DNA of 64,000 nucleotides, taken from positions 19,733-83,732 of IMG/VR virus record IMGVR_UViG_3300047548_000738. One strand, given 5' to 3'. The notes beneath the pieces are model-generated. The model did no database searches. It was not told the origin of the DNA and saw only the letters and a program-made list of their open reading frames with translations. Below are positions 4,388 through 64,000 of this stretch, one piece after another. The stretch is from a virus. The position numbers were made by a program, and so were the translations under genes. Position 1 is the stretch's first letter; each line of letters opens with the position of its first letter.

Positions 4388-4552
4388 TCAGTCCATTTTG
4401 AACGCACGACGGTTAGAACGATAAGCACTTTTTGTTTCACTGACAGTCCAGTGATATGCTTGAATAGTCAGAATGTATACATTTTTGACCAGAATGACCA
4501 AGAACAACAGGGGCATAAATGCAAGATTTAAGTAGTACAAAACAGTATTCAT
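4388..4552 (-). CDS. Small membrane protein, 54 aa
   Basis: A short ORF with one clear hydrophobic segment (LNLAFMPLLFLVILV, residues about 8-22) and a basic C-terminal tail (YRSNRRAFKMD). It is the first gene downstream of promoter copy 4, 27 bases from the -10. The function is unknown; small phage membrane proteins are often host-takeover factors, but that is not shown here. Confidence 0.65.
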   Translation of the reverse strand: MNTVLYYLNLAFMPLLFLVILVKNVYILTIQAYHWTVSETKSAYRSNRRAFKMD

Positions 4553-4568
4553 TTCGGTCTTTTTCAAT

Positions 4569-4607
4569 CAATACATGTATTATATGCCCGAAATGATTTA
4601 TTGTCAA
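4569..4607 (-). promoter_or_regulatory. Promoter with operator-like palindrome (copy 4)
   Basis: Minus strand TTGACA (4602-4607), 17-base spacer, TATAAT (4579-4584), overlapped by CAATACATGTATTA (4569-4582). Confidence 0.9.
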
Positions 4608-4843
4608 GCCATATTCAGTTGAACTTGCATACCTTCCCAAGTGCCAGATTGTCCAACAGTGTTGGACAGAACACCACCGCAAGAGCGGGTGTATTCCAAA
4701 GATTCCAGAGCCTTTTGTGTTGCGGCATTGCAAACACCAAAGTCACCGACACCATTACGAATCTGTTTAGCGGTTGCGTAAAACGACACAGCACCGATAC
4801 AAATACGAAAACGTTGGGTTTGTTTGAAACGCTTGATAGTCAT
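4604..4843 (-). CDS. Hypothetical protein, 79 aa
   Basis: Unknown. It has a basic start (MTIKRFKQTQRFRICIG) and two further Cys residues (GVCNAAT, RSCGGVL). It is a single gene directly under promoter copy 5, with an AAGGAGTC Shine-Dalgarno before the ATG. Its stop codon lies in the -35 box of promoter copy 4. Confidence 0.7.
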   Translation of the reverse strand: MTIKRFKQTQRFRICIGAVSFYATAKQIRNGVGDFGVCNAATQKALESLEYTRSCGGVLSNTVGQSGTWEGMQVQLNMA

Positions 4844-4863
4844 GTCAGACTCCTTTAATCAAT

Positions 4864-4902
4864 CAATACATGTATTGTATGCCCAAACTGATTTATTGTC
4901 AA
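4864..4902 (-). promoter_or_regulatory. Promoter with operator-like palindrome (copy 5)
   Basis: Minus strand TTGACA (4897-4902), 17-base spacer, TACAAT (4874-4879), with the perfect palindrome CAATACATGTATTG (4864-4877). Confidence 0.9.
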
Positions 4903-4935: not shown

Positions 4936-5673
4936 TTACTTTTGTGTTAACTGATTAAAAATTGATTGTAAACCACGCATATATTCCATTTGATTTGGAT
5001 ATAATTTATTTCGCTGTCTTATTAAGTTGAGATATTGCGCTTCTTTATTAATTAACATTAATTGTTCTTGTTTTGTTTTAGCATTAATTAATTGATTATA
5101 TAAATTTCTTTGTGGCCATTGATTATCAGTAGTTTTAGCTAATTTAATTAAAGGATTCTCTACGGATTTTTGTGGAGCTACTTGGGAAGGTTTTTCTTTA
5201 GGTGTATAATCAGGTTTATTAGTTGGTGATTTTTGAACAATATCTTTTTTAGTTACATTCAATAATGAAGAATCACTATCACCTGCAAATTTCATATTGG
5301 CCCAGCGTGTAGCCATTTGCTGTTGCCTTTGCATATTAGGTGGATTACCAGTACCTAAATCATCGTGACTATATATACCGTATAATGTTAATGTATTATC
5401 AGCTTGATTAACGCTGTATACTATACTTAGATTATGTGTTAAATGTGCATGACTTAGATTACTACCGCCCTTTGTTAAATTACCTCTAGTATTAAATCTC
5501 TTATCACTATCACCGAAACCTTGAAATCCGGGTGCAGAACCATTAAATGGAATATTATTTTTCCATTTAATAAAAGAGGATAATTCTTTTTTTAGGCGCT
5601 CTTTTTGGTCACTAAATTTGTTTAGTGTTCGTTCTAATTCTCCGCCTGTTTGTGTACCTAAAACCCTGAGCAT
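4936..5673 (-). CDS. Protein with possible RelE/ParE-like toxin domain, 245 aa
   Basis: The N-terminal half holds a Lys/Glu-rich helix followed by a segment with HAHLTHNLSIVYSVNQ and LTLYGIYSHDDLGTG. This resembles the beta-sheet core of RelE/YafQ-type toxins as found in phage proteins. That is a fold guess from pattern, not a proven match. The C-terminal half is Lys/Gln-rich and low in complexity (AQYLNLIRQRNKLYPNQM near the end). It follows the 60-aa gene at 5679 by five bases and is closed by the terminator at 4904-4934. Local AT content is higher than in neighbours. Confidence 0.55.
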   Translation of the reverse strand: MLRVLGTQTGGELERTLNKFSDQKERLKKELSSFIKWKNNIPFNGSAPGFQGFGDSDKRFNTRGNLTKGGSNLSHAHLTHNLSIVYSVNQADNTLTLYGIYSHDDLGTGNPPNMQRQQQMATRWANMKFAGDSDSSLLNVTKKDIVQKSPTNKPDYTPKEKPSQVAPQKSVENPLIKLAKTTDNQWPQRNLYNQLINAKTKQEQLMLINKEAQYLNLIRQRNKLYPNQMEYMRGLQSIFNQLTQK

Positions 5674-6640: not shown

Positions 6641-8197
6641 TTATTTGGCTCGTTTTTCTCTACCTATTCCAGAAGTTGCTTGTGGCTTTCGTTTGGATCT
6701 AGGTTCCGTAATATCAGATGCAGCTTTTGCCAAATCATCAGTATCCTGTGTCTTGCTTGGTTCTACTGTAGATTCTGGAGCATCATCACCCGAACTAGCT
6801 TTGGGTTTACCTTGTCCTTGGTCAATTAAGAAAGTGAAGTTACCCTTGATTTCAGTACTGGAGTAATTTTTACCAGCACTCAAAAACACACCTTTAATTG
6901 CATCACTTGGATAAACTGTTTTGAATTCGTTTAAAGTCCATTGATCTTTTCCCTCATTCGCTTTTGTGTAGACCTGAACTAGTGCTCCGTTGTTTAAAAT
7001 GTCAGCAGCAGCTTTAGGGAAATTAGTTGTTGCATTTACGTGTTCAGCTACTTTATGTGCAATCGCAGCGATTAAGTGCATGTAGATGTTAACTGAAGTG
7101 GGATTTTTTGTCTTTCTAGATTTTGCTAGGTTCTTTAATTTAGCAGACAATTTTAGTCCACCTACATTCTCTAAATCTATTTTAGGTAAGTTTCGCAATG
7201 CTTTAACTTGTTCAGCTTCTTCTGCATCAATCAGACCCTCATCTACTGCTAGTTTCAATGGAGCTCCGTGCATACCAGCACCAATCATGTCATCTAATAG
7301 TTGAACTTCTTTAGCATACTTCTTTAAAAACTTTTGTCCAGTAGGATTAGTTTTTAATTTCTGAACCTCATCATACAAGTTTTTAGCACTTGCTTCTGCA
7401 CCTTTACCACCTTTGCTACTAATAAGCAAAGTTTTTCCGTCTTTAGTGCTTATAACACTGTCAGTCAAACCACCTGTTTTTGTTGCACCGAATGTAATCA
7501 ACGTATCTTCAAAGGATCCATCTAAAAATCTTTCGGCCGCATCCATAGCATTACCATTGAATTGTCCTTTTTGCAATGCAATGGGCTGTAATATCTCACA
7601 GAAATAATCACGGAAAGCAGCAAATGGTATGTCTTTAGGTGCTTTGAATGACATAGGTAACGGCTCACCTATAGCAACTTTGTGTGCGACTGCGTACAAT
7701 GGATGACTTGTTCCTAAACTTTTGGCAAGTTGATTCATGATGCCGGGTATGGTTTGCAAATCTCTGTCAGTCAATAAGTCTAACGGTGATAATCCTGATT
7801 GTTCTTTCTTAGCTGATTTACTAGCAAACTTCCAATTCTGACCGTTCATTACAAATTTGTTATCAATTGTATTCTGTACAGGATCAGCTTTTACATCGTT
7901 TAGATAACGACCTATTGTTGTAGGACCACTTTTAGTATCAAATGTGATTAGAGCAAAACCACCTGCCCTAGTAGTTTTTGCGTTTTGCCATTGAATGTTG
8001 GGTATCTGTTTAGATACTTGTGCGATTGCTTGGTCGAGTTCTTCGGGTTCATATCTCCCGCCACCTTCAGGAAAGAATTGAATATTGTTAAATGTAATGG
8101 TTTCCCCAGCATCGTTTTGAAAGGGGTCTCCGGGTTTTCTTCCTGCTAGCCCAGTAGCTTCAATTAATAGGGTAAGTTTATCTAAAATATCACGCAT
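6641..8197 (-). CDS. Large protein with possible PD-(D/E)xK nuclease-like core, 518 aa
   Basis: Function unknown. Begins MRDILDKLTLLIEATG, a variant of the MRxxE N-terminal peptide with an LIE/A site that a T4 gp21-type protease could cut. About residues 237-265 contain TDSVISTKDGKTLLISSKGG, an Asp followed by a hydrophobic strand and SxK, reminiscent of restriction-nuclease-like folds. The C-terminal 50 residues are charged and disordered (Pro, Ser, Lys). An ATAAATA late-like element lies six bases from the ATG. A virion-associated role is inferred from the N-terminal peptide. Confidence 0.7.
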   Translation of the reverse strand: MRDILDKLTLLIEATGLAGRKPGDPFQNDAGETITFNNIQFFPEGGGRYEPEELDQAIAQVSKQIPNIQWQNAKTTRAGGFALITFDTKSGPTTIGRYLNDVKADPVQNTIDNKFVMNGQNWKFASKSAKKEQSGLSPLDLLTDRDLQTIPGIMNQLAKSLGTSHPLYAVAHKVAIGEPLPMSFKAPKDIPFAAFRDYFCEILQPIALQKGQFNGNAMDAAERFLDGSFEDTLITFGATKTGGLTDSVISTKDGKTLLISSKGGKGAEASAKNLYDEVQKLKTNPTGQKFLKKYAKEVQLLDDMIGAGMHGAPLKLAVDEGLIDAEEAEQVKALRNLPKIDLENVGGLKLSAKLKNLAKSRKTKNPTSVNIYMHLIAAIAHKVAEHVNATTNFPKAAADILNNGALVQVYTKANEGKDQWTLNEFKTVYPSDAIKGVFLSAGKNYSSTEIKGNFTFLIDQGQGKPKASSGDDAPESTVEPSKTQDTDDLAKAASDITEPRSKRKPQATSGIGREKRAK

Positions 8198-8203
8198 AAT
8201 ATG

Positions 8204-8212
8204 TATTTATGA
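8204..8212 (-). promoter_or_regulatory. T4-late-like promoter element, leaderless arrangement
   Basis: Minus strand TCATAAATA then six bases then ATG of the 518-aa gene; no Shine-Dalgarno. Confidence 0.6.
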
Positions 8213-8216
8213 CATA

Positions 8217-8708
8217 TTAGGTTTTAAATAAATCTTGATGTTTGTACCATTTACGCTGACTGTGTGCAGTCTTTAATGGTATAAAATGATCTTCTAATTT
8301 GTCTTTAAAACTGAAGAATGAAGGCCCATGACTCATTAAAAATGGTTTACCTTCATCATATCGTTGCGGGCCTAGAATATCCCATTGATATTGATGAACC
8401 ATTTCGTGCGCTAGTGTGGCTACCATCCATTGAACACTTATCCACTTATCCATTAACTCTATATCACAGTAACTTCCTGTTTTTTGCATCTCTATATTGC
8501 CGATGCACATCCCCCAATATTTTTGTCTTCTAGGGGCAATTATTAGTCTTGGTTTTCTGAGTTTATTGTTAAAAACGTGATAGTTAATTAACTCATAAAC
8601 ATGATGAATTTGTCGAGGTGATGGCCTAAAATACAATCTTTTTTGCTCAGTATAAGAGGGTAACGGTAACTCCATTAACTCTCGCAAAGTTAGATCGGTG
8701 TATGCCAT
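8217..8708 (-). CDS. SprT-like zinc metalloprotease, 163 aa
   Basis: Contains the HExxH motif in TLAHEMVHQYQWD (Zn ligands), preceded by the YELINYHVFNNKLRKP segment typical of SprT-family proteins. A third-ligand His may be in MSHGPSFFSFKDKL. SprT-like proteases act on DNA-protein crosslinks in cells; in phages their role is not settled. The ATG is five bases downstream of TACTAAATA, with no Shine-Dalgarno. It is transcribed divergently from the plus-strand gene at 8781. Confidence 0.8.
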   Translation of the reverse strand: MAYTDLTLRELMELPLPSYTEQKRLYFRPSPRQIHHVYELINYHVFNNKLRKPRLIIAPRRQKYWGMCIGNIEMQKTGSYCDIELMDKWISVQWMVATLAHEMVHQYQWDILGPQRYDEGKPFLMSHGPSFFSFKDKLEDHFIPLKTAHSQRKWYKHQDLFKT

Positions 8709-8713
8709 ACTAT

Positions 8714-8722
8714 TATTTAGTA
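8714..8722 (-). promoter_or_regulatory. T4-late-like promoter element, leaderless arrangement
   Basis: Minus strand TACTAAATA, five bases from the ATG of the SprT-like gene. Confidence 0.5.
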
Positions 8723-8753
8723 CAATATAAAAAATACCATTCTGTATAAAATA

Positions 8754-8761
8754 TCTAAATA
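8754..8761 (+). promoter_or_regulatory. T4-late-like promoter element with leader
   Basis: TCTAAATA followed by GTATG and a Shine-Dalgarno AAGGAG before the ATG at 8781. This is the usual T4-late spacing, in contrast to the leaderless sites. Confidence 0.5.
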
Positions 8762-8780: not shown

Positions 8781-9113
8781 ATGTTTAATTTTTTAAAGAA
8801 ACTATTCGGAATTGCAGATACTGCTGCCCCGCAGGCACCATATAAGGTGGAAACACCAAAGCAGCCTGAACCTGTGAAATGTGGCTGCGGCCGTAGTCCT
8901 ACAGGATACTGTGTTGGGTTGCATAAGTTATCTGAAACTGAGTGGGCGACACATGCTGACAATCCAAATAAGGTTGCAGCAGCACCTGTAGCAGAAGTAG
9001 CAGAAAAAGCTAAAAAACCTGCTAAAAAGGCAGCTAAGCCAAAAGCCACCGGTGGAGCTAAAAAGCCTGCAGCAAGAACGGCAAAGCCAAAAGCTAGCAA
9101 ACCTAAAGAGTAA
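8781..9113 (+). CDS. Cys-motif protein with histone H1-like Lys/Ala tail, 110 aa
   Basis: Residues about 33-53 contain CGCGRSPTGYCVGLHKLSET, similar to CDGSH-type iron-sulfur or zinc motifs (CxC...CxGxH). The C-terminal 50 residues are a repeat of AKKPAKKAAKPKATGGAKKP type, like bacterial histone H1-like tails, so the protein is probably nucleic-acid binding. The start MFNFLKKLFG resembles MGIFDKLFGG of the protein at 36742-37191. It has a strong AAGGAG Shine-Dalgarno and forms a plus-strand pair with the next gene. Confidence 0.7.
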   Translation: MFNFLKKLFGIADTAAPQAPYKVETPKQPEPVKCGCGRSPTGYCVGLHKLSETEWATHADNPNKVAAAPVAEVAEKAKKPAKKAAKPKATGGAKKPAARTAKPKASKPKE

Positions 9114-9128
9114 TTTTTCAATTAACCA

Positions 9129-9824
9129 ATGATCTTCGGGTTTGATTTACTTAGCGACCTACAGTTAACGTCCGAATCCGAGTTCAATTGGACTGGTAAA
9201 CCCACAAGTTTGTTTTGTGTGTTATCCGGTAATATATCTAATGATATAGGTGTTTTACACAGGACTTTAAGACACCTCAGCGGTTTATACCATGGGGTGT
9301 TTTTTATTGATGGTACATTAGAGAATGAATATTCTATATCTAGGGATACCAAGATAAAAGAAATACAGAGTATTTGTTCAAACTATAGAAACGTAATTTA
9401 TTTACATAACAACGTGGTAGTTATTGATGGTATTGCTATAGTAGGTATAAACGGTTGGCAAGAAAAATATTTTGACTTTAGTGAAATGATTGATTTCCAA
9501 CAGAAACTGTTCAAGTATGAAGATATAAACTATCTAGAAAAGACTCTGGAAAAACTTCAATTACACAATGATGTGAGAAAGATTGTCTTAATAAGCAATT
9601 GTATTCCTCTTAAAGAACTGTTCTTTAAGGAGAAAGAACCAAATACTGACGATTTCTATGCAGGTAGTGTTTTAGATAAAGACACTGAGAAAAAAGTTAC
9701 AATATGGGTATACGGTTCTGATAATAAAATGGTTGACACCGTGATTAACGGTGTCAAGTATGTAAATAATTCTAAATTTGACAGAGATCCCTATTATCCC
9801 AAGCGTATAGAGATAAAGATTTAA
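9129..9824 (+). CDS. Degenerate calcineurin-like phosphoesterase, 231 aa
   Basis: The order of strands matches phage metallophosphoesterases, but the metal-binding motifs appear replaced. DLH reads SDLQL; the GD motif reads LSGNISND; GNHE reads DGTLENE; the later His motif reads LISNCIP; GHxH reads VYGSDNK. The flanking frame (VVVIDGIAIVGINGWQ; NGVKYVNNSKFDRDPYYP) is still recognisable. It is probably a catalytically dead paralogue with a binding or structural role. The family assignment comes from motif spacing and is moderately sure. It is convergent with clpS, and the two stops share TTAA. Confidence 0.6.
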   Translation: MIFGFDLLSDLQLTSESEFNWTGKPTSLFCVLSGNISNDIGVLHRTLRHLSGLYHGVFFIDGTLENEYSISRDTKIKEIQSICSNYRNVIYLHNNVVVIDGIAIVGINGWQEKYFDFSEMIDFQQKLFKYEDINYLEKTLEKLQLHNDVRKIVLISNCIPLKELFFKEKEPNTDDFYAGSVLDKDTEKKVTIWVYGSDNKMVDTVINGVKYVNNSKFDRDPYYPKRIEIKI

Positions 9825-10126
9825 GATTCTGCTTCAATTTTAACTTGAAGTGGGAATCCTTGATCTCTCGCCTCTAATGTTACTTCCATGCCTTTTTGTT
9901 CTGCGATTTCAAAGGGTAATACAGCAACTACTGCACTTCCTGATTCGTGAATACCGCTAGTGATATGCGATGCGGTATCTATGGTATAATTGAAGTGATC
10001 GATAAGACTAGAGACAACAAACTCCATAGTGGTAAAGTCATCATTCATATAGATTACTTTAAACATAGGCGGTTCGTTGACTTTTAAGTTTGGTTTAATT
10101 GTTACTTTAGAATCAGTTTGTGGCAT
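9821..10126 (-). CDS. clpS: ClpS-like N-degron adaptor
   Basis: 101 aa from the ATG at 10126; an in-frame TTG upstream is unlikely. ClpS delivers N-end-rule substrates to ClpAP. The core PPMFKVIYMNDDFTTMEFVV includes the Asn-Asp pair (29-30) that binds the substrate amino terminus. His60 in SGIHESG matches the second binding residue. The end FPLQVKIEAES fits the family. No ClpA is seen in the window, so it would have to work with host ClpA or redirect it. A perfect nine-pair hairpin lies in its leader. Confidence 0.9.
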   Translation of the reverse strand: MPQTDSKVTIKPNLKVNEPPMFKVIYMNDDFTTMEFVVSSLIDHFNYTIDTASHITSGIHESGSAVVAVLPFEIAEQKGMEVTLEARDQGFPLQVKIEAES

Positions 10127-10145
10127 GATATTTAATCTCAAGAAT

Positions 10146-10168
10146 GTGTGCAAGGGTCACTTGCACAC
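10146..10168 (-). promoter_or_regulatory. Stem-loop in clpS leader
   Basis: GTGTGCAAG(ggtca)CTTGCACAC, a perfect nine-pair stem 20 bases upstream of the clpS ATG. On the minus strand it is preceded directly by ATTAAATAC, a late-like -10, so it could form the 5' end of the transcript. No U-tract follows, so a simple terminator for hsp20 is unlikely. Confidence 0.6.
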
Positions 10169-10191
10169 GTATTTAATATAGATTGATTATA

Positions 10192-10638
10192 TTATTTATT
10201 GTACTTAATTGCAATGTTTTTCGGTTTCTTTTCTTCCGGAATCTTTCTTTCCAGCGAAATGTTCAAAATGCCGTTAAGAATTTCTGCATTGATTACTTCT
10301 ACGTGCTCCGCAAGAGTAAATTTTTGCTTAAAGTTTCTTCGGCTCAATCCTCGATGAAAATACTCCCAATTTGCACCTTCAGTGTGTACATGTTCTCCTG
10401 AAATATTCAGTACACTATTTTCCACAGTGATACTTATTTCCCCTTCATTGAAGCCTGCCACAGCAACCTCAATCAATACAGTTTCTTCCCCTGTTTTGAT
10501 TACATTATAGGGTGGATAGTTTCCCTGTGTTTGTGCTGATGCTGCACGTAGCAGTTCATCGAACATTGAATCAAATCCTATACCGAATTTGTGGATATTT
10601 GGAATATCTGTAGAACGTAGTGATAATTCTCTTGTCAT
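10192..10638 (-). CDS. Small heat shock protein, Hsp20/IbpA family
   Basis: 148 aa from the ATG at 10638 with Shine-Dalgarno AAGGAG. It is an ATP-independent holdase. The alpha-crystallin domain runs from about PPYNVIKTGEETVLIEVAV through ITVENSVLNISGEH to the closing strand NGILNISLERKIPEE. The GILNISLER segment corresponds to the conserved GxLxIxLxR motif. The last residues (PKNIAIKYN) resemble the IbpA-type I-x-I tail. It sits between clpS and dnaK in the chaperone block. Confidence 0.92.
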   Translation of the reverse strand: MTRELSLRSTDIPNIHKFGIGFDSMFDELLRAASAQTQGNYPPYNVIKTGEETVLIEVAVAGFNEGEISITVENSVLNISGEHVHTEGANWEYFHRGLSRRNFKQKFTLAEHVEVINAEILNGILNISLERKIPEEKKPKNIAIKYNK

Positions 10639-10700
10639 TGTTTTCTCCTTAAAAAGCAAGAATGAATATCGGGCCTGCCCCATGCAGCACCCGATACAAA

Positions 10701-12587
10701 TTACGCAGATTCTTTTACTTCTGCATCTACTACAGTCTCATCTACTGACTGTGTATTCTTTCCAGAACCCTCAGACTCTTGCTTCTTAACAAGCACAGGT
10801 CCGATTGCCTGATGTAGATCGTTTACTGATTGCTGAATAGCTTCAGTATTGTCTCCCGCAATAGCAACTTCACATGCATCGATTGCAGTTTGAATCTTTT
10901 CACTTTCTTCAGATGTGATTTGATCCTTGAACTTCTTATAATCATTGCTGTAATTATTCAACACTGATTCTGCATGATTACGTGCTTGAATGAGTTCAAC
11001 CATCTTTTTATCAGCTTCTGCATTTTCTTCCGCTTCACGGACCATTCGTTGAATTTCTGCTTCATGAAGTCCGCTGTCACTCTTAATAGTGATTTTGTTT
11101 TCTTTACCTGTACCTTTGTCTCTTGCAGAAATATGCATGATACCGTTAGCATCAATATCAAAGGTAACTTCAATCTGGGGCATTCCGCGTGGCGCGGGCG
11201 CAATACCGTCAAGTTTAAACTCACCTAATAGTTTGTTGTACTTAAACAATTCACGCTCACCTTGACCGACTTTAATATCTACTGCAGGTTGATTGTCGTC
11301 AGCAGTAGAGAATGTCTGACTAGCTTTAGTTGGAATAGTTGTGTTCTTTTGAATTAACTTAGTAAACACACCGCCCATTGTTTCGATACCCAAACTTAGT
11401 GGTGTAACATCAAGTAATAGAACGTCTTTTCTGTCTCCGGATAAAACACTACCTTGAATAGCGGCGCCTGCGGCTACAGCTTCGTCTGGGTTAACATCCT
11501 TACGAGGTGCTTTACCAAACAACTGTTCTACAACTTCTTGTACCTTAGGCATACGTGTCATACCACCGACGAGAATAACTTCATCGATTTCACTGACAGT
11601 AACACCAGCATCCTGAAGTGCTTGTTTACAAGGTTTAATACTACGTTGAATCAACTCGTCAACTAAACTTTCCAACTTAGCACGAGTGATTTTAATGTTT
11701 AAATGTTTAGGTCCTGTTGCATCAGCAGTAATGTAGGGCAAGTTAACGTCTGTCTGTGCAGAACTAGACAATTCAATCTTTGCCTTTTCTGCAGCCTCTT
11801 TTAAACGCTGTAGTGCCAATACATCTTTAGTCAAGTCAATACCTTGTTCTTGTTTAAAGGTATCAACCAAGAAGTCCATAATGCGTTGGTCAAAGTCTTC
11901 ACCGCCAAGGAATGTGTCACCGTTTGTTGAAAGAACTTCAATTTGTTTATCGCCATCAACGTTTGCAATCTCGATAATGGAAACGTCAAAAGTACCGCCA
12001 CCTAAATCATACACTGCAATTTTTCGGTCTTTTGTATCTTGTTTGTCTACACCGTATGCTAGAGCAGCCGCAGTTGGTTCATTAATAATACGTAGAACCT
12101 CTAGACCTGCTATACGACCTGCATCTTTAGTAGCTTGACGTTGACTGTCGTTAAAGTATGCGGGAACTGTAATAACTGCTTGAGTTACTTCATGCCCCAA
12201 ATAATCTTCCGCAGTCTTTTTCATCTTGCGAAGAACCTCAGCAGATACTTGAGGAGGTGCAAGTTTTTTGTCTTGTGCCTTGATCCATGCATCACCGTTG
12301 CTATTTTCAACAATAGTGTATGGCATTAAGTCAATATCTTTTTGAACTGCTTCTTCTTTAAACTTACGACCTATCAAACGCTTAGCCGCATAGATTGTAT
12401 TTTTAGGATTTGTCACAGCTTGACGTTTAGCACTAGCACCGACTAAAACTTCGTCACTAGTATATGCAACGATACTAGGGGTAGTACGTGCACCTTCGCT
12501 GTTTTCGATGATTTTTGAAACGCCGTTTTCAATAACGGCTACGCATGAATTTGTGGTACCCAAATCGATACCGATGACTTTGCTCAT
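10701..12587 (-). CDS. dnaK: Chaperone DnaK (Hsp70)
   Basis: Full length at 628 aa. The ATPase domain shows [13 protein letters not shown] at the start, the phosphate-binding [11 protein letters not shown] and the [15 protein letters not shown] motif. The linker [19 protein letters not shown] leads to the substrate-binding domain, and the helical lid and a charged tail follow. Hsp70 refolds proteins with DnaJ and GrpE; neither is in the window, so host partners are presumed. The gene has its own near-consensus promoter (12650-12678) and a strong Shine-Dalgarno. It is most similar in layout to bacterial DnaK, so it was probably acquired from a host. Confidence 0.97.
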
Positions 12588-12649
12588 TGTGTTCTCCTTT
12601 AATTAAGCAAGAATTTTATAAAGATATAGACCTGTTTAGCATCTATATA

Positions 12650-12678
12650 ATTATATCTATTTTATTTGATTGTGTAAA
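12650..12678 (-). promoter_or_regulatory. dnaK promoter, sigma70-like
   Basis: Minus strand TTTACA (12673-12678), 17-base spacer, TATAAT (12650-12655), 63 bases upstream of the dnaK ATG. It is not a heat-shock sigma32-type site. Confidence 0.75.
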
Positions 12679-12695
12679 ATATACAACTATTTAGG

Positions 12696-12914
12696 TTAGA
12701 ATAGTTTGGGAGGAAGCTGCTGGTCACGCAAGTGTTTTTTCCAACGACGGACTGCTTGGTTTTTTGCAATTTTTCTTTTTACTGCGGGTTTAACAAATTC
12801 TTGTCTATCTTTTAGTTCCTGTAGTAAACCCGTGTCAGTGATTTTCTTTTTTAATTTTCTTAGTGCCTTTTCCCAGTTTCCGTCATGCACTTGTACTCGT
12901 CTTCCTTTTGTCAT
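12696..12914 (-). CDS. rpsU: Ribosomal protein bS21-like
   Basis: 72 aa, normal S21 length. It starts [20 protein letters not shown] and has the family pattern of a short N-terminal segment, an ALRKLKKKI helix and a very basic second half ([18 protein letters not shown]). S21 binds 16S rRNA at the platform and helps initiation; phage-encoded copies are thought to replace host S21 and favour phage messages. Here it overlaps clpX by four bases and is therefore co-expressed with a protease subunit. Confidence 0.85.
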
Positions 12915-14107
12915 ATTAATATTGTAGGGTTAATAACCTGCTCCTTTGTAATATTTAGTGTTTTTATGTTATTTTCTTTATATATTCTAGTATTATACAT
13001 ATGACACATTAATACTCGTTCGATTTCTGTATGTAATCCACGTGCACCTGTTTTTAAACTTAGCGTATTTTCTGCAATTTGTTCTAAAGCATCAGGGGTG
13101 AATGTCAACTCAATTCCGTCTAGTTCAAACAAGTACGAATATTGACTGATATAATTGTTTTTAACGTCAGTGAGAATTTTGACTAATTGTTCCTTCGACA
13201 ATTCATCAATACTCACTGTTGTAGTAAATCTACCGATGAATTCTGGAATCATGCCAAATTTAGTAAGATCATCGGGAGTAACTTCCTTCAACGAACCTTC
13301 TAGTTTAACGTCTTTAACAGTAGCACTGAAACCGATACTTCCACCGTCTTTACGTTTTTGCACCAGTTCTTTCAATCCTACAAAAGCACCACCGGCAATA
13401 AACAGAATGTTTTTAGTATCAATTTCTAACATATCTGCTCCTGGGTGTTTTCTCCCACCTTGACCAGAAACTCTACAAATAGTTCCCTCAACAAGTTTAA
13501 GTAATGCTTGTTGTACTCCCTCACCTGATACATCACGGGTAATACTAGTCGATTCTCCTTTGCGGGCAATTTTGTCAATCTCATCGATGAAAACAATACC
13601 GCGTTCTGCAAGGGCCTTATCACCACCTGCAGCATTTAGTAGCATATTAATCATGGATTCTACATCATCACCTACATATCCTGCTTCGGTTAAACTAGTA
13701 GCATCAGCAATTACAAATGGTACTTGTAGATATTTTGCCGCAGTTTTCGCCAACAACGTTTTACCGGAACCAGTTGGCCCTAATATTAATACATTGCCCT
13801 TTTGCATTTCAAGATTTTTGGGTGGGTTAGTAATTCTCTTATAGTGGTTAGCTATAGCAACACTTAGCACCATTTTGGCATCATCTTGCCCTATGATGTG
13901 AGTATCTAAATAACTTTTAATTTTGTCTGGGTAATACTCTGGCAATGTATCTTCTTTTATGGATTGATCATCTTGTATAAGATCCTCACACAATGAAACA
14001 CAGTCGCTACAAATGGCAACGTTATCACCCACAATTAATTTTTTAACTACATCTTTGCTGTTACCGCAAAAACTGCAATGATTGATTGGTTTTAGTTCTT
14101 CGGACAT
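12911..14107 (-). CDS. clpX: ATP-dependent Clp protease ATP-binding subunit ClpX
   Basis: 398 aa. It has an N-terminal zinc finger (Cys11, Cys14, Cys33, Cys36), Walker A GPTGSGKT (110-117), Walker B IVFIDE (171-176) and a sensor and small domain to the end. The IGF loop (257-259, [10 protein letters not shown]) that docks on ClpP is present, so it is expected to pair with a ClpP, plausibly the one at 5966-6586. It unfolds tagged substrates. The four-base overlap with rpsU marks an operon. No clear promoter was found upstream. Confidence 0.96.
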
Positions 14108-15837: not shown

Positions 15838-17346
15838 TTATTTTTTCATGTAATTTTGGATAGTATCTTGTTCAACATCTGTTAACAATTCAATATCATA
15901 TTCACCCGAAGAAATCTTATTAATTAAAAATTCTACGTATTTTTCGGTTAAGTAAGAAGAAGTAGTATCTTTTTGGATTTCAATCCATTTTCTTCCGTTG
16001 AATTTGAATACTTTATTGGGTATCGAGTCTGTTTTTACAAAAATGTTACCAGATTCTGCTATTAAAGGAAAAGTCGTACCGAATCCGTCGCCTATTTGTT
16101 TATCGTAGTTTTGAAATAATTTTGGGTCAATTGAACGGGCAACACTTTCTTTCATTTGCTTACCGTTGTATGTCACATAGCCATCACCTGTGTTAATGAT
16201 AACAGGCACTTTAGTTTCAATATTAGTTTCAATATAATCTCCGGGTCTTTCTGGACTAGAAGATTCTGCTAGGATTGGCTCTGGATCTGACTTGATTTCT
16301 TCAACTTGTTCTTGTACTGGTTGCTTTGTGGGTTTTGATTTTTTGGTTTTCTTATTCTTTTTCTTTGTTGGTATTAAGGAACCAAACATCCATCCTATGG
16401 GTGCAGGATCCTTAGATGGAGATGAGTTATCCGGTTCAATTACTGAATCCTTAAGTTGAGTTAACTGTTCAGTTGTTAATGGACCGTCATCTTGTTCATA
16501 GCTTTTTATTTCTTCGGCTGTTGGTTTTTCACCTACGTCAGCTATCCAGGGATCGGGCTTATCACTGTCAGATTCTTCTTTGTCCCATTCTTTGCTAGCG
16601 TTAGCAGCCAAAACTAGTGCAATAGCCAACGGGTCGAACACTATAACAATAAGAATAATAACCCATCTAACTGCAGCCTCTAGTAAATTGGTGTCAGGAT
16701 TGTCACCGTATATAAATGCCGCAATGTATTTGATTGGACCCACTTCGGCTTCAACTTTTCTGACTTCTGCACGAATAGGTGCAGCTTGGTCATTCAACGA
16801 AGCAATTAGTTTTTGATTGGCTTCAATCTCTTTGTTAATTCTATTTCTATCACGTTGCTGGCTTTTACGAATCGTGTTTGATTTGTCGGCGCCTTGTTCT
16901 GTGGTACTACGTGCCATGACTTGATCCACGGCGGCATCCATTTGTTTGAGTTCGTTTCTAAGGCTTTGAATATTTTCTTTTGCAGTACTAATCTTTTGTT
17001 CGTATATTTCCAACTTTGATAGAACATCTCCGCTGACTAAACTTTGGTCACTATGAGCCTTGGATAAGAAACCAAAGATACCCATGCTGGTCAAGAAGGC
17101 AAGAAGTACCACTGCGGGCACCAGATATAGTTTCAGAGTAATACTTGCACGATGCCAGTACTTTCTCAACCAAACTGTAGTGGTAATTTTACCTATTTCT
17201 AGTATAGAACCCATAACAATAATAGGAATAACCGCACCTGCAAAGATTGCGGTTAAACCTATAATACTGTAATAGGCTGCTACTGTACTTAATGATAGTG
17301 CTACTAACAGTGTTACGTTAGAGAAACTGATATATTTTTTAAACAT
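15838..17346 (-). CDS. Membrane protein with coiled coil, 502 aa
   Basis: Four or five membrane segments: about 10-30, 33-53 and 72-95, then one around residues 226-246 (VIILIVIVFDPLAIALVLAA). Between them lies a long coiled coil (residues about 105-195, KENIQSLRNELKQMDAAVDQ and following). The C-terminal third is cytoplasmic, with Lys/Pro-rich linkers and a small beta domain near VPVIINTGDGYVTYNGKQMK. Proteins of this layout recur in large phages but their role is unknown. The ATG is five bases from TGATAAATA with no Shine-Dalgarno, so late leaderless expression is likely. Confidence 0.7.
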   Translation of the reverse strand: MFKKYISFSNVTLLVALSLSTVAAYYSIIGLTAIFAGAVIPIIVMGSILEIGKITTTVWLRKYWHRASITLKLYLVPAVVLLAFLTSMGIFGFLSKAHSDQSLVSGDVLSKLEIYEQKISTAKENIQSLRNELKQMDAAVDQVMARSTTEQGADKSNTIRKSQQRDRNRINKEIEANQKLIASLNDQAAPIRAEVRKVEAEVGPIKYIAAFIYGDNPDTNLLEAAVRWVIILIVIVFDPLAIALVLAANASKEWDKEESDSDKPDPWIADVGEKPTAEEIKSYEQDDGPLTTEQLTQLKDSVIEPDNSSPSKDPAPIGWMFGSLIPTKKKNKKTKKSKPTKQPVQEQVEEIKSDPEPILAESSSPERPGDYIETNIETKVPVIINTGDGYVTYNGKQMKESVARSIDPKLFQNYDKQIGDGFGTTFPLIAESGNIFVKTDSIPNKVFKFNGRKWIEIQKDTTSSYLTEKYVEFLINKISSGEYDIELLTDVEQDTIQNYMKK

Positions 17347-19666: not shown

Positions 19667-19869
19667 GTGCCCTCCCAATGTTTACGCCAAGTTCCAGTAT
19701 AGTACATTACTTCTCCGCATTGAGTACAACGATATCTTCCAATATCAATGTCCTCAGTCGTTTGTACTGTGGTATACTCCCAGTGACCCGGTTCAGTATA
19801 ACCCCAGTCATTCTCAAATTCATCATGCCAGATACTGACACTTCGTTGATGGTTACATTTATTTGTCAT
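19663..19869 (-). CDS. Small Cys-containing protein, 68 aa
   Basis: The start at 19869 gives MTNKCNHQRSVSIWHDEFEN and overlaps the ligase end by 11 bases. An upstream start at 19914 would overlap it by 56. CNH plus RYRCTQCGEVMYY could bind zinc. Function unknown. Confidence 0.65.
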   Translation of the reverse strand: MTNKCNHQRSVSIWHDEFENDWGYTEPGHWEYTTVQTTEDIDIGRYRCTQCGEVMYYTGTWRKHWEGT

Positions 19870-55857: not shown

Positions 55858-56516
55858 ACAACTTTTTCGTACTTTAAAAATTTATTATGTCTACGCTCTA
55901 AACCATGAAGCGCAGGATTAATTTGTCGAGTAACTTGGCGAGTATCAGCAAAATCACTAACATTGGGTTTAACTCTTGTGTTCCAATACCATGTAGCAAT
56001 TTGTGATGCTACTTTTGGATCTGCTGCTAGTTCAGGATTATTGAGTAAATCAATTCCTAATGACTTACTAGCACGTGCATAATTTTCTCTACCAGTTAAT
56101 TGAATAAATCCTCTACCGTGAAACTTCTCGCCATCACCTATTCTAGTATTTCCTATAATTTTAGCTGTCTTGGGTGCGTATTTGGGATCATATTTTTTAG
56201 CAAAATACTTAGGTCCCATTGGCTTTTCTTTTAGTTTAGTAAAGTTCCAGGTCTCGTGCATTGTTTGCGCCATGAACTGCGCTAACTCAAGACCTTTTAA
56301 ACCTGCAGCCTTAGCTTGATTAAACAAAAAAGTTTCTAAGCTAGGGTTGCTGCTTAACGGTATAAACTGTTTTTGAACTGGTGGGGGATTTTCGGTGGGA
56401 GGAGTTGTGTTTTTTGTTAGTTGGTATCCTGCGGCAGCTGCACCTGCTGCGGCAGCTGCACCTCGTAAAAAGCCTCGACGGCTTAAATCCTCAGTAGCAA
56501 ATTCAGAAAATCTCAT
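55854..56516 (-). CDS. GH19-type lysin with Tat-like signal and MRFSEF start, 220 aa
   Basis: Residues 58-220 form a GH19 (chitinase/lysozyme) domain: Glu88 in TMHETWNF, then RIGDGEKFHGRGFIQLTGRE, and YWNTRV near the end. Residues 12-19 SRRGFLRG followed by an Ala-rich hydrophobic run are a good twin-arginine signal, and the first ten (MRFSEFATED) match the capsid-targeting-like peptide. It cleaves peptidoglycan. A lysin with a Tat signal and a head peptide is odd: it may be delivered with the DNA or exported by the host Tat system. Confidence 0.85.
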   Translation of the reverse strand: MRFSEFATEDLSRRGFLRGAAAAAGAAAAGYQLTKNTTPPTENPPPVQKQFIPLSSNPSLETFLFNQAKAAGLKGLELAQFMAQTMHETWNFTKLKEKPMGPKYFAKKYDPKYAPKTAKIIGNTRIGDGEKFHGRGFIQLTGRENYARASKSLGIDLLNNPELAADPKVASQIATWYWNTRVKPNVSDFADTRQVTRQINPALHGLERRHNKFLKYEKVV

Positions 56517-57310
56517 TGGAATATCTCAGGATGCTTTTTGCCGTATATTTTTATATACTTTCCAGCTAGCATGTCTGCCATAACTTCGATCGGGCTTCCG
56601 GGATAACTATCACCCGGTTTTATCATGTCTAGCTGCATTTGTTTTTCATGTACAATTTCATGAAACACCGTACGTAGAATGTCAATTAGATTACGATTAG
56701 CAGTATATACCCATATCTCACCTCTTGTACCGTCGTGAGAGTGTCTTCCAGTATGGCTCCCTTGCTGTGCTTCTTCAGTATCTGCACTAAATGTAAATTT
56801 AGGATATGGTTTCTGTAGGTTTACAATTTTGTAAGCCCAGTTAATAAAGTGTTTTATTCTATCATTTTCGTCTTCAGGCTTTAAGGAATCTTCAAACACC
56901 CTACCGTGTTCATCTTTTGTAACTATAGTGTAAGTGATATCCCTAAATTTACTTCTAAGACTTCGTGCTGCTGAATCTGCGTCTTTTGGATTAGAAAACT
57001 TGACAACTGGTTTACCATTTCCGTATACTATATACACCTTAGCTGGATTAGGATTTACCATTAAATTAGGATTACCTTCCTCTACTTTGTCAGTTTCTTT
57101 GAGTTTTTCTTTATATTTCTTAATCCAATGATCCGGAGTATGCTTGTATTTTGCGACAAACATGTCATGTAACTTTTTACCGGTAATATGGTGTCGCTTA
57201 CTTATTCGGCGCATTAGATGGTCAATGGTGTCATAGTCTGTTTTATTAAGACTAGGGAGTTTACGCTTTAACTCATCAACCGCGGATTCTTCTAATTCTG
57301 ATGCTCTCAT
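56513..57310 (-). CDS. MRASEL-type HExxH metalloprotease-like protein, 265 aa
   Basis: Start at 57310 (MRASELEESAVDELKRKL) follows TGATAAATA by five bases and shows a LEE/S site. The first 100 residues are a helical basic module. The C-terminal part carries VFHEIVHEKQMQL (HExxH zinc site) and a later Glu in EVMADMLAGKY. It may cut a host protein after injection. It overlaps the lysin gene by ATGA. Confidence 0.75.
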   Translation of the reverse strand: MRASELEESAVDELKRKLPSLNKTDYDTIDHLMRRISKRHHITGKKLHDMFVAKYKHTPDHWIKKYKEKLKETDKVEEGNPNLMVNPNPAKVYIVYGNGKPVVKFSNPKDADSAARSLRSKFRDITYTIVTKDEHGRVFEDSLKPEDENDRIKHFINWAYKIVNLQKPYPKFTFSADTEEAQQGSHTGRHSHDGTRGEIWVYTANRNLIDILRTVFHEIVHEKQMQLDMIKPGDSYPGSPIEVMADMLAGKYIKIYGKKHPEIFQ

Positions 57311-57418: not shown

Positions 57419-58024
57419 CTAAGGTGTGTTTCTTCTACGTTTAGCTTCCGATGATGAAACTGAAACATACATATGTGTATTTATCGGACCAGACCTATCC
57501 ACCTCAGCGTACACTTCTTTTGATATTCGCATGCCATTACCATTTATATCTACTACAGAAACTGTACCTAAACTGCTATCTCTAATTTTGTTTCTGCCGA
57601 TTTCCGTCAGGGGGACTAAATTCTTTTCTTTGTGTTCTTTAATTCGTTCGGGTGTCCAGTATTTTTTATTCCATTCGCTGTGTTGCTTTTTCCGAGCATT
57701 ATCCCATATAGGCTTAGGTGGATGACCATGCAGTGCCTTGTTAGTTAGAATTCCACCTTCTTCAAATCCCATTCTACCGTATTTCAGTATAAAATATGTT
57801 TCTCGGTTGTACGCTAAGTTTTCATCAGCTATATTATTTTCTAACTCAACTATTGTAGGTAACAACCCTAGTTCTGCAAGTTCTTGGATAATCCTTACTT
57901 TATCTGCATTATCCGTTTTTCCTAAGTGCTCCCTGAGGTGGTCGGATTTGCGATTATTTTTTCCTTTACCCACGTAAAACGGTGCACCATTTCTAGGGTC
58001 AATATAAGCATAAATGTAATACAT
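57419..58024 (-). CDS. GIY-YIG homing-type endonuclease, 201 aa
   Basis: N-terminal nuclease motif YYIYAYIDPRNGAPFYVGKG (YxY...YVG form), then AYNRETYFILKYGRMGF with the Glu/Arg. The C-terminal half has KHSEWNKKYWTPERIKEHK and AKRRRN, which look like DNA-binding modules. The ATG is only four bases from GCATAAATA, giving a leaderless late message. It sits between the lysin operon and the desaturase and is probably mobile. Confidence 0.85.
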   Translation of the reverse strand: MYYIYAYIDPRNGAPFYVGKGKNNRKSDHLREHLGKTDNADKVRIIQELAELGLLPTIVELENNIADENLAYNRETYFILKYGRMGFEEGGILTNKALHGHPPKPIWDNARKKQHSEWNKKYWTPERIKEHKEKNLVPLTEIGRNKIRDSSLGTVSVVDINGNGMRISKEVYAEVDRSGPINTHMYVSVSSSEAKRRRNTP

Positions 58025-59303: not shown

Positions 59304-59995
59304 TTTTTATAATACTGAGTTAAAACATTACTGTTGAAGCCAACATCAACGATGATAGGCTTGCCGTTATATAATCCCCAGTTTGCAGGTCTGCGAAAAT
59401 CACCTAACTCCACATCAAACTGAGAATTTAAATCTGCTAGCACATTAGCATATTCAGTGAAGGTATCAATGTCTTGGTCTGATTTTCCTGCTTCTCTCAT
59501 TCTATCAATATAACCCTGAAACGGACCCATAAACTTTTTTCTACCTGTAATGGCTTGCGCTGCGTTTACTAAAAAGTTTAAACTCTCACACTTCATCGTG
59601 TTGCATAGTTGCTTTTCGTTTACTTTTTGTGCTAGTTCAGTATGAACCCAAGTAGGTTCACGATTCTGTTCATCATAATCAATGATAGGAATTAATATAC
59701 CTAACTGACTTGCGTATCCATCACTAAGAATATCTGCTTCAACACTATTCTGTGCCAGACCTTTTTGATTCTTGGCAATCTTTAACACTGTAGGACGACC
59801 CTGATATTCGATTGTAGTAGCGACACGACTAGAACCGGTACCTAGTTTCTTTGCTCTTTCTAATGCGTATGCTAATCTTTGTTTGAATGTTGTGCCGCGA
59901 CCATATTGAGCAGGATCCCAGTCAGCGGGCAATGGCATTTCAGCAACTACTTGCTCATTAAATTGAGTTACTGCAATAAATTCGTTTGCTCTCAT
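59300..59995 (-). CDS. MRANEF-type protein-kinase-like protein, 231 aa
   Basis: Starts MRANEFIAVTQFNEQVVAE. Residues about 50-90 (GTGSSRVATTIEYQGRPTVL, then KIAKNQ and EADIL) resemble a glycine-rich loop, a catalytic Lys strand and the partner Glu of protein-kinase folds. RPANWGLYNGKPIIVDVGF resembles the catalytic Asn and the metal-binding Asp region. A host-modifying kinase injected with DNA is an attractive guess. It is coupled to the Dps gene above (TAATG). Confidence 0.6.
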   Translation of the reverse strand: MRANEFIAVTQFNEQVVAEMPLPADWDPAQYGRGTTFKQRLAYALERAKKLGTGSSRVATTIEYQGRPTVLKIAKNQKGLAQNSVEADILSDGYASQLGILIPIIDYDEQNREPTWVHTELAQKVNEKQLCNTMKCESLNFLVNAAQAITGRKKFMGPFQGYIDRMREAGKSDQDIDTFTEYANVLADLNSQFDVELGDFRRPANWGLYNGKPIIVDVGFNSNVLTQYYKK

Positions 59996-60435
59996 TATTC
60001 ACGGCTTGTGTTAAGAATGCTACGAATGAACCATGCTTTCTTTGCATATAAGTCTTGCAATTCAGCCATGTAATTAGCAATGCCTTGTTGACGATCCGCT
60101 GTTGCCTCATCAAACATTGTGGCAACTAATTCTATCATCTTTGTACAATCTTGTAGTGTTTCTACAAACATCAACTCAGCACGTGGAATCTTTGTTTGGT
60201 CTTGAATAATAGATAATTCTGAGTATCGGGATAAGCTACCTGGTGTATAGTGACCTAATATTCTGATATACTCAGCAATCTTATCAATCGTGTCTGCTAC
60301 ATCACCATACAACGTATCAAAGAAGGCATGATATTGAGGGAAATTACTTCCCTCAACATTCCAGTGAAAGTTTTGACTTTTGATTGCAAAACTCTGAGTG
60401 CTGGCTAATAATATTTTTAAGTTATCGGTTAACAT
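59995..60435 (-). CDS. Dps/ferritin-like protein, 146 aa
   Basis: A four-helix Dps-type protein: FHWNVEGSNFPQYHAFFDTL carries the ferroxidase His and Asp, with the next acidic ligand in YGDVADTIDKIAEYI. It is close to the 150-160 aa family length. Dps dodecamers oxidise iron and bind DNA, protecting it. In a phage it may protect packaged or replicating DNA. The ATG is five bases from CACTAAATA, with no Shine-Dalgarno. Confidence 0.85.
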   Translation of the reverse strand: MLTDNLKILLASTQSFAIKSQNFHWNVEGSNFPQYHAFFDTLYGDVADTIDKIAEYIRILGHYTPGSLSRYSELSIIQDQTKIPRAELMFVETLQDCTKMIELVATMFDEATADRQQGIANYMAELQDLYAKKAWFIRSILNTSRE

Positions 60436-62087: not shown

Positions 62088-62210
62088 TTAATTACTCTCT
62101 ATAAACAATGCTAGTTGTGCTCTTGCTTCTCTGAAATTGTTTGCTTCAATTTCAACGTACTTTTCTGCTCCACTTTTGCATAACGCAGTAAATTTATATG
62201 TATATTTCAT
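62088..62210 (-). CDS. Small protein, 40 aa
   Basis: A short ORF MKYTYKFTALCKSGAEKYVE and 20 more residues, one alpha/beta unit. It overlaps the upstream stop by ATGA and ends three bases before the Gp88-like gene. Function unknown. Confidence 0.65.
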   Translation of the reverse strand: MKYTYKFTALCKSGAEKYVEIEANNFREARAQLALFIESN

Positions 62211-64000
62211 TTGTTTTTATCTCCCTTTTTCTGTACTTCTTTATCAGCCGGGGTTGAACCTAACTCGTGGTCAACTGGTTTATTGCTTAAGTCGTTGTCT
62301 TTACCATGCTTAAACATTTCTAATTGTTTTTTTAACTCTCTTGCTAACAATTGTTCTTCGCTAAGTTCAGCTTCATTAACAGGAGTTTCGTCTGGTCCCC
62401 AAGCAGTAATTAATAAATTACCTTTTAACTCTGGGGCACGTTTTAACAATGATAGTGCTCCTTGATTTGCAGCCTGCTTACCTGTGAACGGGCCTTCTAA
62501 ATAATTATTTTGCTTAGTCTTAACCCAAAATTTACCAGACTTCTCATACTCTTGACGTTCTGCGTGTTGCTTAGCTAATTGTGCGTCAATCTTTTCACCA
62601 CCGGCAATTTCTCTCTCACGACCAAGTCTAGCTTTACGAGTTACGTCAATTATTTCTTGTTCAGGTTCCGGATACTTTTCTGCTTCTTTTAAAGATTGTT
62701 TCTTTTCTAAAACTTGTTGTTCTAAAACCATTGCTAATTTTTCTAGTTGTTCAACACTTTCGCAATTCCAACGGCGTAGTGCCTTGTTGATTGGACTATC
62801 GGGATTTCTCTTTGTCTTGGCACTTGCGTGTGCCTTCTTCATACCCTTCATTCTAGCACAGAATGATTTGCGGCGCTTTGCTGCCTTACTGCCTTTCTTT
62901 AATTTGCTAGGCTTTGTAGTGACGGCAGTTTGTAATTTAGAACCGGGATTCTCTCTACGGTATGCTTTTACAGCTTTACGACTCATGCCATCAGTCTTAT
63001 CTTTCTTGTTGACTTTTTGCCAGTCTTCGTTTAGTTGTTGCAATTGATGCTGTGCAGTGTTCCACAACTCATAATCTGACAAGGCTTCGAAACTTTCCCA
63101 TACTGTGTCAACACTAACATTGTTTTTAAGAGCCGTTTCTTCGACAAAGATATCCATAGCTTCAAACATAGCATCAACTTCGGAATCTACTTCATCACTA
63201 GATTCCTCACTGTACATGTAATCCCAAACTGCCACTAACATAGATTTAGCAATAGCAATCTTTTCTTGGCACCATTCAGGTAAATTATCACCTGATTGAA
63301 TCAACTCATCAATACCCTCGACTGCACGGCCTAGTGTTTCTAGATTGTTTTCAGCCATGCCAGCTTCGTCATCGTATTCTGCATTTTCATTTTTTGGCTT
63401 TTGACCTTTTTTCTTCATTGAGATAGCAATGGCTGCTTGTTGTGCTAGATTAGCTGCTTCATTCATAGTTCCTAAATTGGATTCTTGTATATCTAATATT
63501 TTCATATTTTCTATTCCTTCGACTGCACTTTCATTTGTTTTCTTTTTTGTAGCAACATTAATAGCTTTACCACTACGTTCTGGATTAGGATCTTCTCGGC
63601 GCTTTTTACTAGCTGCATATTTACGACCTTTTTTACCTAATGCATGTGCTTTTGCTTGTGGCAAACACTTTGGCTTACCTTCACTATCATCACCTCTAGC
63701 ACAGTCACCGCGAATCTTGCCATCAGGACCAAATCGTACCCATTTTTCTTTAAACCATTTGCGTAAATTCTCGTCTAGTTCTTCGACACTTTCTTTTGGA
63801 ACACAGTTAGGCACCATTTTGCCGCCCTTCTTTTTCATTCCAACTTGCTTGTGAGTATCCCAGCACTTTTCATCTAGTTGTTCTTCCGCCACACCTTGCT
63901 TTTTTCTATACTCTGCGGCATCTTTAGCCAACTCGTCACGATAATGTTGTGGAGCAGGATCACCTACCATATCAGCCTGACGCTTTGCCCAACGCTCTTT
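62207..64000 (-). CDS. Large basic/acidic virion-type protein, start outside window
   Basis: The frame stays open to the window edge, so the gene is partial at its 5' end. Residues include two Cys/Lys-rich modules (RGDCARGDDSEGKPKCLPQA and KSFCARMKGMKKAHASAKTK...RRWNC) of a kind met in phage structural proteins. Between them are acidic helical stretches and repeated VEGI/VEEL segments. Several (L/I/V)xE sites suggest it could be a prohead protein cut by a gp21-like protease. Function not proven. Confidence 0.65.
   Translation of the reverse strand, partial: KERWAKRQADMVGDPAPQHYRDELAKDAAEYRKKQGVAEEQLDEKCWDTHKQVGMKKKGGKMVPNCVPKESVEELDENLRKWFKEKWVRFGPDGKIRGDCARGDDSEGKPKCLPQAKAHALGKKGRKYAASKKRREDPNPERSGKAINVATKKKTNESAVEGIENMKILDIQESNLGTMNEAANLAQQAAIAISMKKKGQKPKNENAEYDDEAGMAENNLETLGRAVEGIDELIQSGDNLPEWCQEKIAIAKSMLVAVWDYMYSEESSDEVDSEVDAMFEAMDIFVEETALKNNVSVDTVWESFEALSDYELWNTAQHQLQQLNEDWQKVNKKDKTDGMSRKAVKAYRRENPGSKLQTAVTTKPSKLKKGSKAAKRRKSFCARMKGMKKAHASAKTKRNPDSPINKALRRWNCESVEQLEKLAMVLEQQVLEKKQSLKEAEKYPEPEQEIIDVTRKARLGREREIAGGEKIDAQLAKQHAERQEYEKSGKFWVKTKQNNYLEGPFTGKQAANQGALSLLKRAPELKGNLLITAWGPDETPVNEAELSEEQLLARELKKQLEMFKHGKDNDLSNKPVDHELGSTPADKEVQKKGDKNK

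Follow-up and report, generated by a model that had tools for sequence, protein, structure and literature searches.

The clpS locus and its altered metallophosphoesterase gene

The 64,000-nucleotide stretch analyzed here (the window) covers positions 19733 to 83732 of an 83.7-kb virus record. On its plus strand, at 9129 to 9824, lies an open reading frame (ORF) of 231 amino acids with an ATG start, which we annotate as a pseudo-metallophosphoesterase from its match to PHROG 1649, an AF2 model, Foldseek comparisons, and 76 nonredundant relatives. A small gene for a 110-amino-acid protein precedes it (8781 to 9113, +), and beyond this gene lies a conserved neighbor for a SprT-like protein (8217 to 8708, -; Pfam PF10263, E 1.3e-5, just under the cut-off). 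Convergent with the ORF, and overlapping it by 4 bp, is a gene for a ClpS adaptor (9821 to 10153, -; PF02617, E 8.2e-24), followed by genes for an Hsp20-type small heat shock protein (10192 to 10683, -; PF00011, E 5.9e-17), a DnaK-like chaperone recognized by sequence (10701 to 12587, -), and a ClpX-like unfoldase (12911 to 14107, -; AAA_2, E 1.3e-31; zf-C4_ClpX, E 1.3e-13). The same order recurs in relatives, where the pseudoenzyme gene is convergent with clpS (usually with a 4-bp overlap), hsp20 follows, dnaK and clpX are usually present, dnaK being a conserved neighbor in most, and the SprT-like gene flanks the locus on the side away from clpS.

The T4-type DNA polymerase of the window phage has its closest matches, at 48 to 50% identity, in Sinorhizobium phage Phosso and Agrobacterium phage Atu_ph07, and a 367-kb contig holds one relative of the pseudoenzyme locus. 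These two observations indicate that the window virus, an aquatic bacterial virus, is a T4-related and probably large phage.

A preliminary description had read the ORF as an intact calcineurin-like frame whose motifs were replaced at five places, and all five changes are present in an ORF that stays open over its full 231 codons. Former motif I reads SDLQ for SDLH (residues 9 to 12; 9153 to 9164, +), with Asp10 kept and His12 changed, and former motif II reads SGN (residues 33 to 35) for GD, with GN (residues 34 and 35; 9228 to 9233, +) placing Asn where the bridging Asp would be. The former GNHE motif lies in DGTLE (residues 61 to 65) as GTLE (residues 62 to 65; 9312 to 9323, +), so that the Asn and the catalytic His are lost and Glu65 is kept. 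In our ligand table, SNCIP (residues 156 to 160; 9594 to 9608, +) replaces THxxP and GSDN (residues 196 to 199; 9714 to 9725, +) replaces GHxH. Six of the seven metal ligands (D, H, D, N, H, H, H) and the catalytic His are thus gone from the window protein. The earlier claim that the whole metal site had been lost was slightly too strong, in that Asp10, the sole ligand kept, is invariant in the family and Glu65 is kept as well.

The PHROG 1649 profile, labeled metallo-phosphoesterase, matched the window protein at residues 41 to 196 (E 8e-7) and matched 12 of 21 relatives. No Pfam PF00149 match above the cut-off was found among 21 family members, as expected from the loss of the motifs, and Pfam, NCBIfam, and PDB sequence searches with the pseudoenzyme gave no usable match. 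Structure prediction had been proposed in the preliminary description as a check on the scaffold. An initial AF2 prediction with 3 sequences gave a poor model (pLDDT 62.6), which we replaced by a 21-sequence model (pLDDT 85.3, pTM 0.85), for which all Foldseek matches in the PDB at an E value of ≤0.001 were metallophosphoesterase (MPE)-fold proteins or a complex containing one (TM 0.46 to 0.59). These included PptH, MPPED2, Mre11, Dbr1, GpdQ, and GAP50; PolD, polymerase delta, and VPS29 entries appeared lower in the list, and the best viral matches were metallophosphatases with TM values of up to 0.77. The scaffold seen earlier is therefore borne out by both the profile match and the predicted fold. 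The TM values against PDB entries mark the window protein as a divergent member of the fold, and the PHROG match, a full-length alignment to ligand-intact orthologues, and the fold together show that the motif pattern is not due to chance. By its predicted fold, and by descent as read from sequence, the window protein is a member of the calcineurin-like metallophosphoesterase superfamily.

Conservation of the former metal site

Searching viral contigs with profiles yielded 25 loci, which overlap with the best 80 loci taken from a search anchored on clpS. The pseudoenzyme gene adjoins clpS in 79 of these 80, and the contig of the 80th ends there. Among the 76 nonredundant pseudoenzymes of the ligand table, position 10 is Asp and position 35, that of the bridging Asp, is Asn without exception, and Glu65 is present in 75. 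Position 12, formerly His, is Asn in 66 and His in 5 (Gln in the window protein); the Asn of the former GNH is kept in 3; and the position of the catalytic His, residue 64, is Leu in 62 and never His. The motif IV His position (residue 157) is Asn in 55 of the 76 proteins and His in 10, and each His of the former GHxH survives in only 1. The loops of the old metal site had a mean conservation of 0.82 versus 0.61 for the rest of the protein. The closest pair of pseudoenzymes, the sole unsaturated one, gave a dN/dS of 0.06 at a dS of 0.11; wider pairs gave 0.04 to 0.05 but are saturated.

Selection for a noncatalytic role, as proposed in the preliminary description, is well supported by these data: at least 76 distinct phage proteins vary little in length and all have Asn at the bridging position, dN/dS is about 0.06, and catalytic and half-way orthologues exist at the same locus. 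We infer, and consider it very likely, that the ORF at 9129 to 9824 encodes a noncatalytic pseudoenzyme under selection; proteins of the window type would no longer hydrolyze phosphoesters. A decaying gene without function might be suspected from the one relative with a broken frame, but the other complete relatives have an uninterrupted, full-length gene, its invariant residues and low dN/dS speak for constraint, and conservation across independent metagenomes refutes functionless decay, to which we assign practically no probability. In the broken relative the frame is split in two (L031 positions 4716 to 4895 and 4937 to 5410), which reflects either real decay or an assembly error. One MPE-like protein beside clpS, in L319, is a member of the pseudoenzyme clade without the first Asp (GEL for SDL). 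A single scan of bacterial and archaeal genomes found no relative of the pseudoenzyme, and we set aside a recent host origin of the gene.

The protein might still be an enzyme that works with one metal or by a new metal-free chemistry. Asp10 and Glu65 are nearly invariant, the pocket loops are conserved, and VPS29, itself with Asn at the bridging position, can take up metals during soaking at high excess (PMC3101248). However, nearly all family members have lost the His ligands and the positions of the catalytic loop vary freely, and we regard retained or new catalysis as very remote. A second use of the same pocket would be as a ligand sensor or sponge in which hydrolysis is lost and the ancestral phosphodiester, a cyclic nucleotide for instance, is still bound and so sequestered or sensed, possibly against host nucleotide-signaling defenses. 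Conservation within the protein is highest in the old active-site loops, with Asp10, Asn35, and Glu65 nearly invariant, and a role in counter-nucleotide defense has been proposed for calcineurin-like enzymes of jumbo phages (PMC7824862). However, phosphate binding in the MPE fold needs two metals and six of the seven ligands are gone, residues 63 and 199 vary freely, and the family belongs to the core of its phage lineage and has a fixed position, whereas counter-defense genes are patchy. We consider a sensor or sponge unlikely, although the conservation of the pocket loops taken by itself fits a retained small-molecule ligand and a protein interface equally well.

Three forms of the gene at one position

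Catalytically intact proteins (SDLH, GD, DGNHEH, THxxP, and GHxH) hold the position of the pseudoenzyme in other phages. In 166 of 239 clpS-anchored loci, an MPE-like gene is convergent with clpS, and 112 of the 166 are nonredundant. We scored these 112 for retention of eight residues, the seven ligands and the GNHE His, and the distribution was bimodal: 82 proteins, including one broken copy (L110/L031), keep 0 to 2 of the eight, 30 keep 7 or 8, and none lies between. Nine of the 30 high-retention proteins are GNDE or GNEE variants (the GND group), in which all metal ligands are intact and the catalytic His is replaced; another, L268, keeps seven residues and has lost only the last His. The clpS locus therefore exists in three states, with 21 intact or near-intact GNHE proteins, 9 GNDE or GNEE proteins, and about 80 pseudoenzymes. 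The remaining 73 of the 239 loci (e.g., L182 to L189 and L289 to L312) have no convergent MPE-like neighbor; a few of their contigs end nearby but most continue, so clpS also occurs in other lineages that lack such a gene.

MPEs of the PHROG 1649/DGNHEH type from phages (Phosso, Atu_ph07, and the orthologues L256 and L177) share with the pseudoenzyme the fold, descent, and stretches outside the active site, and the syntenic catalytic ones occupy the same clpS/hsp20 locus. Unlike the pseudoenzyme, they keep all metal ligands and GNHE, and no gene with a Lys/Ala/Pro-rich tail lies upstream of them at this locus. This synteny bears on a role in Clp or chaperone regulation, in which the protein would act with ClpS, Hsp20, DnaK, ClpX, and ClpP, for example as a protease adaptor or inhibitor. 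The near-constant clpS neighbor in the best 80 clpS-anchored relatives and the chaperone genes that adjoin in nearly all would suit such a regulator. However, the pseudoenzyme gene is read from the other strand and has a promoter-like motif of its own, synteny extends over the whole region, and the catalytic orthologue has the same neighbors. The position is thus older than the pseudoenzyme, which weakens the Clp adaptor idea, and we judge it improbable.

In our careful tree, the pseudoenzymes formed one clade (support, 100/100) on a stem of 1.9 changes per site. They branched within the GND group, with which they formed one clade (100/99), and all proteins of the clpS locus likewise formed one clade (100/98). 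A constraint that placed the catalytic and GND proteins together was rejected (p-AU 0.021). By BLAST, the window protein was 31 to 37% identical to the GND proteins over residues 1 to 231 (E ~1e-43 to 1e-50) and 27 to 29% identical to the GNHE proteins (E ~1e-24 to 1e-27). The ligand columns were retained in the tree and would draw the GND group to the catalytic group, and so they are not the source of the pseudoenzyme-GND clade; the placement of the pseudoenzymes could be affected by long branches, given their long stem. GNH variants of the metallophosphoesterase superfamily are not always inactive, and for this reason we do not call the GND group inactive. Position and phylogeny make it very probable that the gene at 9129 to 9824 is orthologous by position to a phage metallophosphoesterase and arose through stepwise, in-place inactivation of such an enzyme; the catalytic His would have been lost first and the metal site second, at one locus.

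An intact metallophosphoesterase is encoded elsewhere in the same record (L002 positions 1244 to 2092). Together with the four PF00149 matches in the 367-kb relative, this means that the phage need not have lost the enzymatic function overall. The intact MPE falls in another clade, and on this ground we rejected the idea that the pseudoenzyme is its recent duplicate. An intact enzyme in the same genome could take the pseudoenzyme as a regulatory partner, the pseudosubunit of a heterodimer, and its presence near the locus in several relatives would favor this; the separate clades of the two proteins speak against it, and we think such a pairing highly improbable.

The upstream gene and a possible scaffold role

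The gene at 8781 to 9113 (+) encodes a protein with an amphipathic N terminus (MFNFLKKLFG), a Cys-rich insert (CGCGRSPTGYCVGLH), and a Lys/Ala/Pro-rich tail. Pseudoenzyme phages carry a small gene of this kind on the same strand, whose product has a hydrophobic or amphipathic N terminus (MEIIIGIAVV... or MFNFLKKLFG...) before the Lys/Ala/Pro-rich tail; in some copies the N terminus is a membrane helix and in others an amphipathic one. A gene with such a tail was detected upstream of the pseudoenzyme gene at 69 of 77 loci, the other 8 having none by the threshold used, but at none of the 30 other loci (21 catalytic and 9 GND). Some copies have a CDGSH- or zinc-like Cys/His motif, CGCGRSxTGxCVGLH (window 8781 to 9113, +; L106 positions 4989 to 5309; L209 positions 2079 to 2390; and L211 positions 4495 to 4806). 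One of the ligands of VPS29 is a Cys4 zinc microdomain in VARP (PMC7539009), to which this motif bears a resemblance only. The upstream proteins of L008, L032, L118, and L120 have an EF-hand or dockerin-like loop (DVNQDGKVNLKDAV), with a Pfam Dockerin_1 match for L032 (E 1.5e-5).

A late-promoter-like motif, CTAAATA, lies 26 nt before the upstream gene (8755 to 8761, +), and a divergent CTAAATA precedes the SprT-like gene (8714 to 8720, -). All 19 loci examined carry a TAAATA-type motif, in most cases CTAAATA, 25 to 41 nt before the upstream gene, and the divergent motif is likewise found in all 19. The 367-kb relative has ATAAATA at -33 of the gene that follows the major capsid gene. CTAAATA is not enriched in the whole window (10 versus 15 expected), so the promoter reading derives from positional conservation, and the classical T4 late promoter TATAAATA is absent from the whole window (0 versus 6 expected). 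The conserved motifs suggest late expression of the pseudoenzyme locus. At six other window genes (6641 to 8197, 8217 to 8708, 15838 to 17346, 56513 to 57310, 57419 to 58024, and 59995 to 60435, all -), [AC]TAAATA starts 11 to 13 nt before the ATG, which leaves no room for a ribosome-binding site and raises the possibility of leaderless late transcripts.

Our preferred reading, to which we give a probability of about 0.5 as a whole, is that an MPE lost its activity in place and was retained as a docking scaffold. The old pocket would now be a cluster of Asp10, Asn12 (Gln in the window protein), Asn35, Glu65, and Asn157, with the hydrophobic Leu64 in place of the catalytic His, and this former metal pocket may have become a docking surface, perhaps for the protein encoded just upstream on the same strand. 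The two proteins would then form a late-expressed assembly or tethering scaffold. That the pseudoenzyme serves as a scaffold for a protein partner has, in our estimate, somewhat less than an even chance. The upstream protein is the best candidate for the partner, since its gene is found where the metal site has been lost, and we name it tentatively; its gain lies on a single branch, and the link with metal-site loss may be a coincidence.

VPS29 is the closest precedent for how such a mechanism may work. It is a metal-independent rigid scaffold in which the bridging Asp is Asn39, Phe63 contacts VPS35, and the metal pocket is part of the interface (PMC3101248). The phage family resembles it in having a noncatalytic MPE fold, Asn for the bridging Asp (76 of 76), and, in most members, a hydrophobic residue for the catalytic His (residue 64). 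We take Phe63 of VPS29 to occupy this same position of the GNHE motif. However, VPS29 keeps His and Asp ligands, whereas the phage family has lost the His positions in nearly all members, and for this reason we do not file the phage protein as VPS29; moreover, VPS29 is a shorter, eukaryotic protein, the phage has no counterpart of its partner VPS35, and the two resemble each other weakly by Foldseek (E 4e-3 and above). A second precedent is the B-subunits of eukaryotic replicative DNA polymerases, in which an inactivated calcineurin-like domain is retained as an assembly scaffold (PMC4996933). These subunits carry an OB domain and bind the polymerase, whereas the phage protein is a single 231-amino-acid domain with no OB domain in the AF2 model. 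Plasmodium GAP50, an MPE-fold membrane anchor by the title of PDB 3tgh, matched the window protein in Foldseek (E 2e-4) but is larger, has its own membrane attachment, and comes from an unrelated organism.

In the literature searched, with most subscription journals outside its scope, we found no published account of such a phage pseudoenzyme family. Annotation pipelines would miss the family (no Pfam match) or label it an enzyme (PHROG 1649). The eukaryotic inactivated MPEs, VPS29 and the polymerase B-subunits, are known as finished products, whereas for the phage pseudoenzyme, also of the MPE fold, the series of forms in place is unusually complete. Because the enzyme, the half-way form, and the pseudoenzyme share one syntenic position, the order of the losses and the gain of a partner can be tested on orthologues. 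The fullest version of our reading holds that phages made their own VPS29-like pseudoenzyme stepwise at one locus and joined to it a membrane-tethered, basic-tailed partner as a late-stage scaffold, with all three forms surviving today; we rate this version as doubtful.

Left of the window, the same record holds unusual phage cargo on the minus strand (L002 positions 6666 to 8729, 9756 to 11018, 11015 to 12124, and 12126 to 13076), read from sequence as a large membrane protein with adenylate-cyclase-like sequence, two curlin-like QxGxxN-repeat proteins, and a FecR-like protein. Near the other end of the window, 62207 to 63970 (-) encodes a 587-amino-acid protein with DUF6321 (E 6.3e-11), which is common mainly to cyanophages and Pelagibacter phages and adjoins terminase genes in some of them.
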